From contig PWQB01000325.1 in NCBI GenBank assembly GCA_003556955.1, positions 1 to 5,095 of the forward strand: a stretch of 5,095 nucleotides of DNA, in the 5' to 3' direction. Positions 1-5,020 of this stretch are shown piece after piece. A model generated the notes under the pieces. The model saw nothing but the letters and a program-made list of their open reading frames with translations, was not told where the DNA came from and searched no databases. Position numbers and translations under genes: made by a program. The first letter of the stretch is position 1; each line of letters opens with the position of its first letter. The stretch comes from Nostocaceae cyanobacterium CSSed10_463m (GTDB lineage Bacteria > Cyanobacteriota > Cyanobacteriia > Cyanobacteriales > Nostocaceae).

Positions 1-702
1 ATAGTTGTATGATATCCTCTCTGTAACTAACCCACTCTCTAAACTCAGCAGGAGTTAGTTTAATGTTGTCCAAATGATTTATGAATCTCCTTCTTTTTTT
101 TTGATTTCCTCATCATAACCTAAACAAGCATGTGTTAAACCTTGTAAGTCGTCAGTTCCTATTAACCCGCAATAATTAATTAAGTCAATAGAAAAGTTAT
201 ATGATCGTTGAATACCCAAAATTATAAGAGGAAGCACTTCTTTGAAAGTCACTTCTTCCTGCTTATATAATCTTTCGTCAATTTCGTATGCTTTTTTACC
301 GTATGGACTGACTAGTACTGCTTCTTCCTCACAGTCATCAAATAAACTAAGGGCAACTTTTCTTGGTTCAGCAGTTGCAGGGATAATTTTAATTTCAAAT
401 CCACAATCAAGTTCAACTGTAATTTTTAAAGAACTTTTAGATTTCTCATGTTCGTCTAGGTATTCTTGAGTTAGTTTAAATTCTGTTGGAGGAAACCAAA
501 GATAATCTTTCAATTCTTTAGATTTAATTGGTTTTAGAAATTCGTTTTTCCCTGGTGTAGGATCTGAAACAGCATATGTTCCATAAATTCCATTACATTT
601 CCCATTGAAGAAAGTGTAACCTGGGAATAACTTTCTTAAAGATGTAATATTTCCAGGGATATCTTTTATTGTGTGAGTGAAATATTTAGTTTTAAGCATC
701 AT
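1..702 (-). CDS. Predicted -1 frameshift product of the tail chaperone gene (GT-like, partial)
   Basis: If ribosomes slip back one base on the A run at 102-94, translation leaves the short form after the three Lys codons. It continues as RRRFINHLDNI, then KLTPAEFREWVSYRED, and on for 31 codons to the window edge without a stop. The 'L-T-x-x-E-F-x-E-W-x-x-Y' motif (about 58-14) resembles the T domain of GT-type tail chaperones, which typically has an 'eF.eW.a.y.l.p' core. No ATG or GTG exists in this frame after the slip site, so an independent gene would need a TTG (73-71) 13 bases from the AAGGAG at 92-87. The long form would bind the tape measure, with the short form linking to tube subunits. 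The end of the extension and the tape measure gene lie outside the window. Confidence 0.6.
79..702 (-). CDS. Probable tail assembly chaperone, short (G-like) form (about 207 aa)
   Basis: Lambda gpG-type chaperones coat the tape measure protein and recruit tube subunits. Residue numbers here count from the in-frame ATG at 720. Residues 13-90 are a variable N-terminal part (FPGYTFFNGKCNG). Residues 98-120 are strands with IIPATAEPRKVALS (112-125). SPYGKKAYEIDERLY (138-152) follows, then helices EVLPLIILGIQRSYNF (161-176) and IDLINYCGLIGTDDLQGL (179-195). This pattern recalls chaperones placed before tape measure genes. Start choice: AAGGAGG (710-704) lies inside the longest frame and no ribosome site precedes ATG 720, so ATG 702 or 699 is more likely, although their spacing (1 or 4 bases) is short. 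The stop at 81-79 comes 12 bases after a run of nine A's. Position after the tube genes fits strongly. Confidence 0.65.
   Translation of the reverse strand: MMLKTKYFTHTIKDIPGNITSLRKLFPGYTFFNGKCNGIYGTYAVSDPTPGKNEFLKPIKSKELKDYLWFPPTEFKLTQEYLDEHEKSKSSLKITVELDCGFEIKIIPATAEPRKVALSLFDDCEEEAVLVSPYGKKAYEIDERLYKQEEVTFKEVLPLIILGIQRSYNFSIDLINYCGLIGTDDLQGLTHACLGYDEEIKKKEGDS
94..102 (-). promoter_or_regulatory. Candidate -1 ribosomal frameshift slip site (nine A's)
   Basis: The mRNA reads ATC AAA AAA AAA GAA in the zero frame, so it contains A-AAA-AAA, a classical slippery heptamer that lets tandem Lys tRNAs re-pair one base back. It lies 12 bases before the zero-frame stop, where G/GT frameshifts usually occur. 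A GAGG sequence (112-109) ends about 7 bases upstream and could act as an internal Shine-Dalgarno stimulator, as in dnaX; this is inference. I see no strong stem-loop at the usual 5-9 base downstream distance. Confidence 0.65.
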
Positions 703-703
703 G

Positions 704-710
704 CCTCCTT
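704..710 (-). promoter_or_regulatory. Ribosome binding site that decides the chaperone start
   Basis: AAGGAGG is a near-perfect Shine-Dalgarno sequence lying inside the longest reading frame, downstream of the ATG pair at 720/717, which itself has only AT-rich sequence before it. It is followed by C and then ATGATG (702-697). The spacing to ATG 699 is four bases, short but usable; to 702 it is one base. This argues for a start at 699 or 702. Confidence 0.6.
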
Positions 711-737
711 CAGCCATCATGGCTATTTAAATTGTTA

Positions 738-1175
738 TCAGGTATATAAAATAATTCCTATCTCAGTAGTATTATGATCAGCATCTTCATCATAAGCCCT
801 GAATGTAATAGTTAATGAAGATTGTCCCTGAGACTCCAAGCCATCAGTTACTGAAACCACACAAACACTTTTAAGAGTTATAGTTTGATCAGTTGATAAA
901 CCATCTCCACAAGTGCGTAACTTACCTGTCAATATTAATTGACCTGTATCGCCTGGTTCGAAAGACGAAGCAAAAGAACTATCCATAGTTTCAACTGTTA
1001 CATCAACTGAGTACATGTCATCTATAGGGAGATTAACAGTTCTACTTGCATCAGCAGTTAGGTTTGTCTCTTGGGTTGTTTCATTCACAGTACCATTGGT
1101 CAAAGAAGTAATAGTTATCGCTCCTTCACCTTCCCCGAAAACTGCTGAAGTGAGTGCATATGTTTTAGCCGCCAT
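738..1175 (-). CDS. Probable tail tube protein, second of two paralogues (145 aa)
   Basis: This is a clear paralogue of the gene just upstream, about 40% identical by hand alignment. Shared blocks are MA.KT at the start, L.AD.SR.VN (39-48 here), TMD (63-65), PG..G.LIL (74-82), GDG (90-92), E.QG.S.L (114-121), F.AYD..AD (125-132) and the final YT. It differs by a four-residue insertion near residue 14 (GEGE), a two-residue insertion near 72, and three Cys (89, 105, and none conserved with the first copy apart from chance). It is all beta by pattern. TGAGGAG (1188-1182) is at once the stop of the first copy and the ribosome site of this one, 6 bases before the ATG, so the two should be made together. 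Both may build the tube, or one may be a specialised ring or surface variant. Confidence 0.5.
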   Translation of the reverse strand: MAAKTYALTSAVFGEGEGAITITSLTNGTVNETTQETNLTADASRTVNLPIDDMYSVDVTVETMDSSFASSFEPGDTGQLILTGKLRTCGDGLSTDQTITLKSVCVVSVTDGLESQGQSSLTITFRAYDEDADHNTTEIGIILYT

Positions 1176-1181
1176 TTATTT

Positions 1182-1188
1182 CTCCTCA
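1182..1188 (-). promoter_or_regulatory. Stop codon fused to ribosome binding site between the tube paralogues
   Basis: TGAGGAG contains the TGA stop of the first paralogue (1188-1186) and, sharing its A, the AGGAG ribosome site of the second (1186-1182), 6 bases before ATG 1175. The overlap suggests coupled translation of the two proteins. Confidence 0.7.
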
Positions 1189-1602
1189 AGTATATTGAAT
1201 TAGATTTGATTCAGTTTCGTAATCAGCAAGTGGATCATAAGCGATGAAACTAATTACTAGTGCAGATTCACCTTGAGTTTCAATCGTATTGTCTGAACTA
1301 CTCACTTTTGCGTTTGTCATTGTGATTGTTGCACCAGCACTAACACCATCACCAGCCGATCTTTCAACAGTTTTTAAAATTAGTTCACCACATGAACCAG
1401 GTCGAAGTGCCTGACTACCATCCATGGTTGTAACGGACACTATTACAGTTTTTTCATCAACAACAACTTTATTTACTATTCGACTTGAGTCAGCGGATAA
1501 ATCTGTAGGAGTGCTTGTCTTTTCAATTGAAGCACTTTTAACAGATTTAATAGCAACTCCGTCAAAAGTCGCTTCAGATAATAGAAATGTTTTACTTGCC
1601 AT
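1186..1602 (-). CDS. Probable tail tube protein, first of two paralogues (138 aa)
   Basis: Tube proteins form stacked rings along which DNA leaves the head. The protein is almost entirely beta by pattern, with alternating Val/Ile/Thr, 138 residues and no membrane segment. Features include MASKTFLLSEA at the start, LSADSSRIVN (35-44), VSVTTMDGS (56-63), PGSCGELILKT (68-78), GDG (84-86), TQGESALVISFIAYDPLAD (109-127) and YT at the end. Most of these recur in the next gene. Length, beta content and position directly before the tail chaperone gene match major tail proteins of long-tailed phages. AGGAG (1613-1609) is 6 bases before the ATG. A tail-tube-related minor protein or a decoration protein is the alternative. 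Which paralogue forms the main tube cannot be told from sequence. Confidence 0.5.
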   Translation of the reverse strand: MASKTFLLSEATFDGVAIKSVKSASIEKTSTPTDLSADSSRIVNKVVVDEKTVIVSVTTMDGSQALRPGSCGELILKTVERSAGDGVSAGATITMTNAKVSSSDNTIETQGESALVISFIAYDPLADYETESNLIQYT

Positions 1603-1638
1603 CTTGTTCTCCTGTTACATGTATATTTATGTGATTAT

Positions 1639-2040
1639 TCACATCTTTTTCATCAAAATTTCTTTTGTCAATTCAGTTATCTTATCTAGATCTTCTTTCC
1701 TGAAATGTGTGAAATCTAAACCTTTTGCTATTAGATTCTTACCATATATGGGATATGATACAGTCATTCCCTGATAATTAACTTTAATTGATCCTAAAAC
1801 AGTATCTCTTAGAGTTCCTTCAGCAACTAATTGGGGTAATCGTTGACCATATTTTTTCATTTTAGTCATTTCATATCTTTGTGTGTTAGGTGCCCAACCC
1901 ATTTTCTGAGTATTTCCAAATTGAAATCGACTAGGTAACTCATCTCTGACCCACTGTCTCACAGCTTCCTGAACAGCAGGAGATAAGTTCTTCTCTTGCC
2001 ACTTTAAGAATTCTTGAATTTCAGCAACTGATCGCATCAT
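1639..2040 (-). CDS. HK97 gp10 / Mu gpG-like head-tail joining or tail completion protein (133 aa)
   Basis: This family closes the head-tail joint or completes the tail. The N-terminal helix (5-34, AEIQEFLKWQEK through EAVRQWVRDELPSRF) is followed by the loop MGWAPNTQRY (47-56). Next comes LVAEGTLRDTVLGSIKV (71-87), matching the 'L..tG.Lr.Si...v' hallmark, then a strand with IYGK (98-101). The terminal segment FTHFRKEDLDKITELTKEIL (110-129) matches the 'R.flgls.eD...i..i...l' ending. Length is typical. It overlaps the previous gene at ATGATG. AGGAGAG (2057-2051) is 10 bases from the first ATG (2040) and 13 from the second (2037), which favours 2040. The family call is by pattern only; among the connector genes here it is one of the better supported. 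Confidence 0.62.
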   Translation of the reverse strand: MMRSVAEIQEFLKWQEKNLSPAVQEAVRQWVRDELPSRFQFGNTQKMGWAPNTQRYEMTKMKKYGQRLPQLVAEGTLRDTVLGSIKVNYQGMTVSYPIYGKNLIAKGLDFTHFRKEDLDKITELTKEILMKKM

Positions 2041-2720
2041 AATGTAAACTCTCTCCTAACATTTATTTGAATTTCTGCAATTGTCTTAGGGCAAGTACTG
2101 TCCATTGCTTGAAGATCACTATAGAGAGTTATATTACTATTTCCTTCTTCAACAATTCCTTTAGTTAATAGTTCAGGCATTCTCATGATTACTAGTCGTT
2201 CACTTTCGTTTGCTGATACAAATTCCATTGATCCTACTAGATTGTCTCCACTAGGTGCAGTCGTAGTTGAATAAACGACATCAGCTTCATAATCACTAAA
2301 TCCTGTTATATTCATTGGTGCGACAATAGGAACAAGTACACAGTCACCTTCTTTCATAGTTAATGAAGTGGTTACGAATGTACCATCTGGTTGAACAACT
2401 CCAATGTCGATAAATGAAACAACTATTCTATTATAGACATCATCAATATCTCTATCTGTTACATCTAAATTAAAAAAATCAGGAGTTATGAAATGGCTTG
2501 AATCAGTAGTTCCGAAGTCAAAATGACCCTGACCACTATTAAGAATGTCAACATCTAAACGATAATAGCCATCTAAGAGGTTCTGTACACTATCTATGTC
2601 TGCACTGTCATAGGTATCAGAACCAATCCGACCATTCAAGGTGAAATCTGAAATATCTGTAACTTCTGCACCAGAGATGTCAGTCACTAAAACAGTAAAA
2701 GTATTCATTCCTTTCTTCAT
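2037..2720 (-). CDS. Two-domain beta-rich (Ig-like) virion protein (227 aa)
   Basis: The sequence suggests two beta domains joined near residue 90. Domain 1 (about 6-88) runs TFTVLVTDISGAEV, then NLLDGYYRLDVDILNSGQGH. The 'l.dGyYrldv' pattern is one I associate with Ig-like or BppU-type domains in phage tail and neck proteins. Residues 80-96 (PDFFNLDVTDRDIDDVY) look like a linker. Domain 2 (about 98-225) has LTMKEGDCVLVPIV, then TGFSDYEADVVYS and, at the end, AEIQINVRREF, again a beta-sandwich pattern. No membrane segment or enzyme motif is seen. It lies between the terminator-like and gp10-like genes, so it may be a neck decoration or an adhesin-like accessory; this is inference. TAGGAG (2732-2727) is both the upstream stop and the ribosome site, 6 bases before ATG 2720, which favours that start over the Met at codon 5. 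Confidence 0.55.
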   Translation of the reverse strand: MKKGMNTFTVLVTDISGAEVTDISDFTLNGRIGSDTYDSADIDSVQNLLDGYYRLDVDILNSGQGHFDFGTTDSSHFITPDFFNLDVTDRDIDDVYNRIVVSFIDIGVVQPDGTFVTTSLTMKEGDCVLVPIVAPMNITGFSDYEADVVYSTTTAPSGDNLVGSMEFVSANESERLVIMRMPELLTKGIVEEGNSNITLYSDLQAMDSTCPKTIAEIQINVRREFTL

Positions 2721-2726
2721 TTCGTT

Positions 2727-2732
2727 CTCCTA
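2727..2732 (-). promoter_or_regulatory. Stop codon fused to ribosome binding site
   Basis: TAGGAG gives the TAG stop of the terminator-like gene (2732-2730) and the AGGAG site for the Ig-like protein, 6 bases before ATG 2720. It fixes the downstream start at 2720. Confidence 0.7.
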
Positions 2733-3170
2733 GTATGAATTTTCCACATTAAAATTAACTTTTAAAACAAAGATAGTCGGATTAAATTGCAATTGTTCAA
2801 CAGTCTCACCACCTATTCTATAATTCGCTCTACCTCTTAGATCGTCTCTGATTGATTCAAACATTTGATATGCTTGATCCCATTGATCTTCTTGATCTTG
2901 CATTCTCTGATTAGTCACAACAATTTCAATTATAAAATTACTCGTAACAGTCCCACCTCTTGATGAGGACGTCTGTGCATTGAAGTCTCTTGGTCCTCTG
3001 AATACTCTAACAAAAGGGCATCTACCACGATTCTGACCACCAACACCAAGCATCCCACCAGCATCACCATAAAATATATGTTTAGAATTCCAATCACTTG
3101 ATATTATACCTGTGATTGATTCTGGAACTGATTGAACTGAGGCGATCAAATCATCTAACATAGTCTTCAT
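2730..3170 (-). CDS. Probable tail terminator / tail completion protein (146 aa)
   Basis: Tail terminators (lambda gpU role) form a ring that caps the tail tube and docks it to the head. The protein shows the alpha/beta order expected: an N-terminal helix (1-14, MLDDLIASVQSV), then a Gly-rich loop (35-50, GDAGGMLGVGGQNRGR), then strands CPFVRVFRG (51-59) and SNFIIEIVVTNQ (77-88). A long helix (93-113, DQWDQAYQMFESIRDDL) and two final strands (VEQLQFNP, TIFVLKVNFNVE) follow. Length is normal for the family. Its ATG overlaps the upstream TGA (ATGA, 3170-3167). No close AGGAG exists; GAGGG lies about 11-12 bases away, so translational coupling is likely. The call rests on fold pattern and position; another connector component remains possible. 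Confidence 0.5.
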   Translation of the reverse strand: MKTMLDDLIASVQSVPESITGIISSDWNSKHIFYGDAGGMLGVGGQNRGRCPFVRVFRGPRDFNAQTSSSRGGTVTSNFIIEIVVTNQRMQDQEDQWDQAYQMFESIRDDLRGRANYRIGGETVEQLQFNPTIFVLKVNFNVENSY

Positions 3171-3838
3171 ACTCTGTTAACCCTCACTGAGAAGAAACCA
3201 ACTGAGAAAGGATAGTTCAACCATTTTAATTTTTTAAATTCTGGAGGAATAAACCCTTTCTTATCATATCGGTCCTCAAACTTACTTGCCTCTGAACAAT
3301 AGTGATCAACTAATGCCCACACATCACTTCCAGCAGAGAATAATTGATGTCCTACTGTGCAACAGACTTTATTTCTTAGATACCTAGCAAGAGAAGGGAT
3401 ATTTAAATCATCAGAATGATAACTAACTATTAATGTAGTGTCAGGATCGTATGATTCACCTAAGATTACTTCATTTCCAACAACTTCATAATCTTCAAAG
3501 ATTGCAAAATCATTAAAAACTGTCTCACAAGGATTGTGGCATAATAATCCATTAAACTCATCTAAAATTCTAATTTGAATGCATTCAGGTTCACCAATTA
3601 AAGTAATTATATACTCACCATCTTCATTTGGGCAAATGTTTTCAAAAATGTGAGGAGCTATCCAACCTTCAATCATGGCAACAATTGCTGGGTGGAGATA
3701 TTGAAGTGATTCATCGAAGGCTAATTCTAGTTCATTTGTTATTATCTCAGCACCTGAGATTCCATTAGTTGCCCAATCACTCCCTTGAGTGCTGTTAAAT
3801 GACTGTATGATATCATCATGATCTAATCCATAAAACAT
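3167..3838 (-). CDS. Probable head-tail connector (adaptor-like) protein (223 aa)
   Basis: This probably sits below the portal in the neck of the virion. Residues 28-58 contain a helical stretch (ITNELELAFDESLQYLHPAI), reminiscent of the N-terminal helices of gp6/DUF1320-type adaptors. Residues 74-140 are a beta-rich insertion. Residues 146-205 are helical again (NIPSLARYLRNKVCC, then WALVDHYCSEASKFEDRYD and PPEFKKLKWL), matching the second helical bundle and Tyr/Asp-rich end of such adaptors. At 223 residues it is longer than the usual 100-150, which the beta insertion would explain. It has seven Cys, including CHNPC at 100-104 and CC at 159-160. Position before terminator-like and gp10-like genes fits. 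AAGGAG (3852-3847) lies 8 bases before the ATG and shares bases with the upstream stop. A minor head protein is the main alternative. Confidence 0.5.
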   Translation of the reverse strand: MFYGLDHDDIIQSFNSTQGSDWATNGISGAEIITNELELAFDESLQYLHPAIVAMIEGWIAPHIFENICPNEDGEYIITLIGEPECIQIRILDEFNGLLCHNPCETVFNDFAIFEDYEVVGNEVILGESYDPDTTLIVSYHSDDLNIPSLARYLRNKVCCTVGHQLFSAGSDVWALVDHYCSEASKFEDRYDKKGFIPPEFKKLKWLNYPFSVGFFSVRVNRV

Positions 3839-3846
3839 ATTAATTG

Positions 3847-3854
3847 CTCCTTTA
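3847..3854 (-). promoter_or_regulatory. Stop codon overlapping ribosome binding site before the adaptor gene
   Basis: TAAAGGAG combines the TAA stop of the coiled-coil protein (3854-3852) with the AAGGAG site, 8 bases before ATG 3838, supporting that start. Confidence 0.65.
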
Positions 3855-4226
3855 TTGCACTAACGCCAGTTTATAGGTTTCACCATTTATATTCACTTGT
3901 ATATAGCCTTCAATTGTAGTATCACTACCCGTAACAACTGGTGTATCTGCCATCAAAACTTCTTCTGATATTTTTTTTGTCAATGAAATATCTAAATTTT
4001 CTATATCTGTTTCTAATGGGCTAAAATCTATATTATCAATTGCCCCTGATAAGTTAATTACCTCCCCTTGAAGGTTACTAATATCACCTTCAATTTCTGA
4101 CAGATCAATTGACCCAATTGCTGCATCCACTTCGGAACGGGAATAGACAACTAAATCATCTCTTGCTTCTTCGGGAGTTCTTATGATAACTAACTCCGGA
4201 AATTGTCTTTGTCTATTGACGGCCAT
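3852..4226 (-). CDS. Small coiled-coil virion-like protein (124 aa)
   Basis: I do not recognise a named family. Residues 1-30 are a polar N-terminus (QFPELVIIRTPEEAR). Residues 31-90 show spaced Ile/Leu/Val suited to a coiled coil or fibre shaft, including the related segments EIEGDISNLQGEVINLSGAI and LETDIENLDISLTKKI. The last part (about 95-124) is predicted beta: VVTGSDTTIEGYIQVNINGE followed by TYKLALV. A short 'I-x-V-x-I-N-G-x-T-Y-K' strand pair at the very end is common in small phage structural proteins. A trimeric helix with a small beta cap would make it a minor fibre, spike or head-fibre component, which is inference. The start is well supported: AGGGAGG (4239-4233) lies 6 bases before the ATG, inside the end of the upstream gene, so the two are probably translationally coupled. 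Confidence 0.6.
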   Translation of the reverse strand: MAVNRQRQFPELVIIRTPEEARDDLVVYSRSEVDAAIGSIDLSEIEGDISNLQGEVINLSGAIDNIDFSPLETDIENLDISLTKKISEEVLMADTPVVTGSDTTIEGYIQVNINGETYKLALVQ

Positions 4227-4581
4227 CTCGTTCCTCCCTAATTGCTATTCTCACTTCCCTAACGATATCACTTCTTAGTTTTTCGAAATCTGCTCTTTGC
4301 TGTAATTGATTGTGTTCAACTATTAGAATTTTTGAATTTAATGACGACATGTAAATAAAGAAACTAATTATGAAAGGAATTAGAATGACTAATAACTTAT
4401 TCCAGTCGATTAACCCTTTTTTCATGTTAAAATATTCCTCTCTGGCTAACTCTTTTATCTTGGCAGGATTATGTGGACAATGTTTGCTGTGATCAGTAGG
4501 GTGCATTCTAACCATCCTCTCAGTTGATTTCTCATCTTCGGCTTCATTACTATTTATCATTTTTTTAGTTGTTCTATCCAT
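4213..4581 (-). CDS. Small single-pass membrane protein with His/Cys cluster (122 aa)
   Basis: I do not recognise the family. The frame opens at 4647, but I place the start at ATG 4581. It lies one base after the upstream stop (TAA 4585-4583), has GGTGA (4591-4587) at a good distance, and avoids a 65-base overlap. Residues 1-25 are polar and charged. Residues 27-37 (HPTDHSKHCPH) hold four His and one Cys, which could bind a metal. Residues 62-81 form one clear hydrophobic membrane segment (LLVILIPFIISFFIYM core). Residues 85-118 are a charged helix with coiled-coil character (QLQQRADFEKLRSDIVREV). The last 14 bases overlap the next gene. A holin-like, spanin-like or DNA-entry membrane role would fit a small phage membrane protein, but none is shown. 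No signal-peptide cleavage site or lipobox is seen. Confidence 0.75.
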   Translation of the reverse strand: MDRTTKKMINSNEAEDEKSTERMVRMHPTDHSKHCPHNPAKIKELAREEYFNMKKGLIDWNKLLVILIPFIISFFIYMSSLNSKILIVEHNQLQQRADFEKLRSDIVREVRIAIREERDGRQ

Positions 4582-4582
4582 T

Positions 4583-5020
4583 TTATTCACCGAAAAGAAC
4601 TTCTCTGATTGGATATGGGGGAGGTCCAACTGTTGAGAAATCCTCATTAATTAAGTCAATTATTTCTTTTGAATGTGAGGAAGTTACTTGATCCCTTCTA
4701 GCATAATATTCTGTCCAGATTGATTTAATCCAATCGCCAAATGCAGCAGCTTTAGATGATCCTGCCAATTTAAGCTGAAGTAGGGCACTAAAACCACCAT
4801 TAGCAACATGGGAATACTCATAATCAGTTGCTGCTTGCCACAATCTTTCAATTTTTTGATATTTGAAATCATCTAAGCTGATGACATAAGTATCAATTTC
4901 CTCTTGAGTTATATGATCAGGAACAAGTAAGTATCCTGGTTTGTGTGATTGAGGGTAGTCGCCTTGAGCATCAAAATATTTTTGACCATCAAAATTGTCA
5001 GGTATAATTAATTCTTTCAT
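4583..5020 (-). CDS. Probable tail fibre assembly / chaperone-like protein (145 aa)
   Basis: The 145-residue cytoplasmic protein has no signal peptide or membrane segment. Its N-terminal third (about 1-50) is variable, with Gly/Pro/Tyr. The middle (about 53-112) is helical, with the Ala-rich run LAGSSKAAAFGDWIKSIWTE followed by YYARRDQV. This resembles the 'A..W...lW..YYaRK' helix common in small phage proteins encoded next to fibre genes. The C-terminus has VGPPPYPIREVL, similar to the 'GP.PY.f.ei' ending of some fibre-associated proteins. It starts 10 bases after the stop pair of the preceding virion gene, and AGGAG (5032-5028) sits 7 bases before the ATG. Such proteins usually help fibres fold or oligomerise, and some remain in the virion. 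The role here is inferred from pattern and position; a non-chaperone virion protein is possible. Confidence 0.5.
   Translation of the reverse strand: MKELIIPDNFDGQKYFDAQGDYPQSHKPGYLLVPDHITQEEIDTYVISLDDFKYQKIERLWQAATDYEYSHVANGGFSALLQLKLAGSSKAAAFGDWIKSIWTEYYARRDQVTSSHSKEIIDLINEDFSTVGPPPYPIREVLFGE

Follow-up and report, generated by a model that had tools for sequence, protein, structure and literature searches.

A putative recoding site of nine A's at the end of a candidate G-like tail assembly chaperone gene from an undescribed phage-like lineage

The slip sequence of the lambda G/GT system is G_GGA_AAG, and the locus described here, compared with lambda through library searches only, differs from it in offering a run of nine A's (A9), on which RNA polymerase can slip as well. 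Recoding of the G/GT type is widespread in long-tailed phages (PMC5009743), and AAAAAAA has been tentatively named as the slip site for 13 of 18 Paenibacillus larvae phages (PMC6256562). The nearest likenesses in form are two Paenibacillus larvae phages of the genus Fernvirus, Arcticfreeze (MH431932) and Yyerffej (MH431931; spelled Yerffej in PMC6256562). Their records carry a run of exactly nine A's that opens 19 bases ahead of the stop of the upstream tail assembly gene and closes 10 bases ahead of it; at the present locus the run closes 12 bases ahead. In both records the -1 extension is annotated as a joined CDS of which the extension makes up about 98 codons (31 can be seen here, up to the edge), the upstream gene follows that of the major tail protein, and the tape measure gene comes next. 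The likeness is one of arrangement: the upstream protein of the two phages has 112 aa and shows no relation to the G-like protein of the present locus by profile comparison (probability 0.2%), and their run starts on the third codon position (A_AAA_AAA_AA, then G), so that A_AAA_AAG is also usable there. In a third record, that of Paenibacillus phage Ash, the run is of six A's and lies 31 bases ahead of the stop. Because pure-A sites were thus already in print, and A9 itself stands in two phage records, the first-pass annotation's description of the slip site as unusual fails.

Beyond tail genes, E. coli dnaX shares with the present locus an A-run slip site and an upstream SD-like element (PMC3711429), but it has a downstream hairpin and the heptamer A_AAA_AAG, whereas no stable structure follows the run here. 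Yersinia pseudotuberculosis tssM3 and Thermus thermophilus dnaX likewise carry nine A's or nine T's (PMC4256274; PMC5009743); both are non-tail genes in which shifting has been measured, whereas at the present site it is predicted from sequence.

The window, by which is meant the whole stretch of DNA analysed, is an entire contig of 5095 bases with ten short, tightly packed genes (79-5020), all read on the minus strand. At its low-numbered edge it appears to hold a G-like gene for a tail assembly chaperone, with the 3' end at the site in question (Table 1). Most readings of this gene would end at the frame 0 stop and give the short protein, while a minority would shift at A9, re-read one base and carry on in the -1 frame, making a longer fusion in the manner of lambda G and GT. 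The likeliest step would be tandem slippage of two lysyl-tRNAs on A_AAA_AAA, perhaps aided by the SD-like GAGGAA upstream; slippage of RNA polymerase at A9 would yield the same fusion and may contribute. That the gene is recoded at A9 by one route or the other is probable, and the narrower claim that the ribosome is the main route is tentative, falling a little short of an even call.

Table 1. Features at and near the candidate recoding site, in window coordinates
Feature	Position	Strand	Description
-1 extension, putative T region	1..94	-	31 codons with no stop before the contig edge; no ATG or GTG
Start under the reading as a separate gene	71..92	-	AAGGAG, 13 bases, then TTG (73-71) in the -1 frame
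Frame 0 stop TAA	79..81	-	12 bases between A run and stop
G-like gene	79..702	-	207 aa + stop from ATG 702; C-terminus DEEIKKKEGDS
A9 slip site (putative)	94..102	-	Three AAA codons of frame 0; includes heptamer A_AAA_AAA (100-94), followed by G
SD-like GAGGAA	106..111	-	GAGG at 111-108, 7 bases before heptamer A_AAA_AAA; possible stimulator
Second tandem paralogue	738..1175	-	Possibly a tail-tube protein, judged from place only
First tandem paralogue	1186..1602	-	Pairs with 738..1175

The frames around the run are as the first-pass annotation had given them. Frame 0 reads ATC AAA AAA AAA GAA GGA GAT TCA TAA, and the placing of the nine A's ahead of the stop was exact to the base. The -1 frame, readable to base 1 only, is free of stops from 109 to the edge over 36 codons, the 31 past A9 spelling RRRFINHLDNIKLTPAEFREWVSYREDIIQL, while the +1 frame gives KEIHKSFGQH, ten codons, and then closes at 62-60. 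A9 is the sole nine-base run in the window, the next longest being two runs of eight. Its presence alone is unremarkable, since in 415 of 2000 codon-order shuffles a run of at least nine A's turns up in one or another of the ten genes. As to its position, a nine-A run fell within the last ten codons of any of the ten genes in 122 of 10000 samples, and within those of one named gene in about 0.12%, drawn from a codon pool that includes A9 itself. It is not uncommon for the -1 frame to be free of stops where a gene ends: two of the nine other gene ends have such a frame, of 28 and 137 codons (the latter because the next gene overlaps in that frame), and 86 of 2596 off-frame stretches of 31 codons within genes contain no stop. 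Among the ten A or T runs of at least six that start inside genes, only A9 is followed by a -1 frame free of stops for more than 17 codons. If nothing were translated between the stop and the edge, these 78 bases would exceed every other gap in the window, of which there are nine, ranging from -14 to 36.

Codon usage bears on the same question. Over its last 25 codons the -1 frame has a codon log-likelihood of +2.09, the highest of the six frames, against -7.33 with one stop for frame 0 and +0.81 with four stops for the +1 frame. The references are a mean of +8.6 for in-frame stretches (sd 3.8, n=1348) and of -7.8 for stop-free off-frame stretches (sd 4.3, n=152, maximum +3.78), so that the -1 score lies 1.7 sd under the in-frame mean and within the range of the stop-free off-frame stretches, as given by a model trained on the very genes of the window that it scores and applied here to a short region. 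The score favours coding in the -1 frame without settling the matter.

The relatives of the G-like protein supply a further line of evidence. The protein itself may start at other codons than that of Table 1 (206 aa in the protein database, from ATG 699; 213 aa from ATG 720). A search of 5.8 billion proteins returned four at E<=0.01 among 245 candidates, the window's own included, and a profile search returned 14 at E<=1 among 3984 candidates. These comprise the first four and a further ten, and even the weakest match has an E of 3.1e-38. All 14, the window protein and 13 relatives with 35-86% identity to it, were aligned and none was left out. A KK or KKK stands 1-18 residues ahead of the C-terminus in every one of the 14, and 1-8 residues ahead in 13. 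The three columns of the block hold K in 13, 14 and 11 of 14 proteins, the exceptions being E in P0002, N in P0007 and P0013, and A in P0014, and the first two are the only columns among residues 196-206 that are kept in at least 13 of 14. Past residue 195 the relatives otherwise vary in length and in letters. With residues 198-206 at pLDDT <50, in a model whose overall mean is 84, we read the C-terminal tail as disordered. Conserved lysines in such a tail, followed by free variation, would be the expected protein-level trace of a conserved A-run slip site; they do not amount to proof, as the conservation is one of protein letters and the lysines could be encoded by AAG or form part of an embedded SD. 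Lysine in the window's own genes is AAA in 70 of 86 codons, and with the codons of the substitutes E (GAR) and N (AAY) the DNA would stay rich in A. Judged from the protein letters, P0002, the nearest relative (EKK), probably has at most eight A's and P0014 (KKA) perhaps six.

Recoding is the best-supported reading of the locus on three counts: lysines at the site in all 14 proteins, a codon score that is highest in the -1 frame, and a precedent for A9. The match to the G/GT system asserted in the first-pass annotation stands in part. What carries it is the A9 close to the stop, along with the lysines, the codon score and the precedent; what drops out is the rarity of the slip site, treated above, and the motif of the -1 peptide. 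This motif had been called T-domain-like, and it is not diagnostic. The -1 peptide has no match in Pfam or PHROG, and one search for protein relatives, with candidates limited to about 52-166 aa, found none. A scan of IMG/VR for any DNA that encodes TPAEFREW gave three exact matches, which fall in a ParB-like ORF (L001, by library match), a portal-like ORF (L002, by reading of the ORF sequence) and an ORF of no recognised family beside gp46/47-like genes (L003, by reading of the ORFs). Because none of the three is a recognisable tail chaperone, TPAEFREW does not identify a T domain, and its use as proof of one was rejected.

The third of these matches lies in an ORF of at least 277 aa (L003, 1-831, minus strand) that runs off its contig. 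Here the identity with the -1 frame of the window extends over nine residues, TPAEFREWV, although the surroundings do not resemble tail genes. PHROG matches of this ORF across the motif, with a tail assembly chaperone at E 0.1 and with a tail protein at E 0.24, speak for the first-pass reading but are weak and were not counted, and tblastn with the N-terminus of the ORF found nothing.

The G-like gene has no counterpart among the families of the libraries searched. Neither the G-like protein nor its relatives matched Pfam or PHROG at better than E 0.0065, the window protein (the only one compared there) matched nothing in NCBIfam at better than E 0.0065, and across the libraries and profile comparison searched no family or profile connects the gene with any chaperone already known. 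No relative came out of IMG/VR scans made with the G-like protein, with alignments A2 and A4 or with one back-translated motif, nor out of GTDB genome scans made with the two alignments, each of these scans using one to six short patterns. Tblastn of two of the relatives against phage records gave no match. The neighbours are similar in this respect. None of the ten window proteins has a convincing match in Pfam, PHROG or NCBIfam, the best of any being that of the protein at 3855-4226 to an ArlS sensor domain (E 0.0011), under the curated cut-off. Tblastn with six of them against 50,697 phage records gave no match, the DNA of the whole window has none in phage records either, and IMG/VR scans with the protein at 2733-3170 and with the paralogue pair (one to six short patterns each) gave no relative. 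The lineage is new to the collections searched. Separately, the small protein at 4216-4581 has, by eye, one likely membrane-spanning stretch, LLVILIPFIISFFIYMSS.

Since none of the searches links a window gene with a phage family, we infer a phage origin from layout, that is, from ten packed genes on one strand and a slip site that comes after a pair of paralogues. These two, 41% identical to each other (E 4e-30), stand directly before the G-like gene and are about the size of the Arcticfreeze major tail protein (145 aa), which likewise stands before the tail assembly gene. The pair is possibly a duplicated tail-tube gene, a reading taken from its place, and a tape measure gene may lie past the edge. 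The paralogues have no convincing match in family libraries or PDB and no profile match to one known major tail protein, and the structure model of the 1186-1602 protein is of no use (pLDDT 31).

Elements that might stimulate a shift were sought on both sides of the run. Downstream, the RNA folds no better than shuffled sequence (z 0.47 and 0.30), which bears out the earlier remark that no stem is visible; the longer of the predicted stems begins 33 bases past the A run. On the upstream side, GAGGAA has a pairing energy of -6.3 kcal/mol with the anti-SD, which places it among the lowest 3% of 1510 in-phase positions. It was found post hoc and is a lead only, a possible stimulator. The two residues that it encodes are E or D in 13 of 14 proteins at position 197 and in 10 of 14 at position 198, and the A9 of Arcticfreeze has no such element (-1.0 kcal/mol).

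Given that the two proteins could be made by either machine, one alternative concerns not the recoding, which it shares, but its agent. RNA polymerase slippage on A9 would be the main route and a ribosomal shift would be unneeded: mRNAs with an extra A would give the fusion, and those with one A fewer would give a short product, since the +1 frame closes after ten codons. A homopolymer of at least eight A's or T's is a mark of programmed transcriptional slippage, and A9 is such a run. It also exceeds the cited length, An with n over 7 (PMC3711429), slippage by the polymerase in vivo is stated for nine A's or T's (PMC5009743), and the nine A's of Yersinia tssM3 shift at 15-25% (PMC4256274). In cassettes of another gene family, shifting was 63% with eleven A's, 40% with nine and 10% with seven; for two cassettes of phage tail chaperones the figures are 6 and 7% (PMC3711429). 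The lack of a downstream stem points the same way. On the other side, the runs deduced for P0002 and P0014 would be shorter, the known chaperones are credited to ribosomal shifts (PMC5009743), and the SD-like element found post hoc lies upstream of the heptamer. No report of a phage tail chaperone made through polymerase slippage was among the papers listed by literature searches whose scope takes in a minority of the subscription journals. Nothing in the window sequence decides between ribosome and polymerase, and polymerase slippage as the main route appears unlikely. The point is not confined to this locus. The two Paenibacillus larvae phages carry A9 in their tail assembly genes (L004, 1928-1936; L006, 1925-1933), for which PMC6256562 names the heptamer AAAAAAA only, and polymerase slippage could act at these sites too.

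The main alternative to recoding itself, one that the first-pass annotation had left out of account, takes the -1 frame as the ordinary next gene, begun at the TTG behind an AAGGAG RBS, with the A run being a lysine-rich tail and nothing else. The stretch with AAGGAG does pair well with the anti-SD (-8.8 kcal/mol), and MDNIKLTPAEFREW would make a natural N-terminus. The spacing of 13 bases is long, although it has a near precedent in the gene at 2040, whose AGGAG and ATG are 12 bases apart. An SD can be embedded in a conserved tail of lysine and glutamate, and the KKKE of most relatives is ambiguous in this regard at the protein level; against this, KKN or KKA in 3 of 14 makes a strong SD inside the lysine codons less likely, though one is possible elsewhere in the tail, and the window's lysine codons are AAA and placed ahead of the SD. 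Further, all ten window genes read as ATG-initiated and the -1 frame has neither ATG nor GTG, which again favours recoding. Taken together, a separate gene from the TTG is rather improbable. That the frame relation is an artefact of a wrong run length in the assembly, or of an error near the contig end, is very improbable, for although homopolymers close to contig ends are error-prone, the relatives stop at the same place with dissimilar tails, so that the frame 0 stop looks real across the family.

Recoding at A9 is of a kind already known, the G/GT type, and the window is probably a further example of it from an apparently very divergent phage. A likely recoding site can be recognised from conserved lysines alone, in a family that is outside all the profile libraries searched, and the spread of tail chaperone recoding gains a lineage that the searches run did not match to any of 50,697 phage records. 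A9 also provides a clean case for asking which of the two machines, ribosome or polymerase, determines how much of each protein is made relative to the other. It is doubtful that the balance between short and long chaperone in this lineage comes mainly from slippage of RNA polymerase on the A run instead of from the ribosome; if it did, the stoichiometry of tail assembly would depend on the polymerase.
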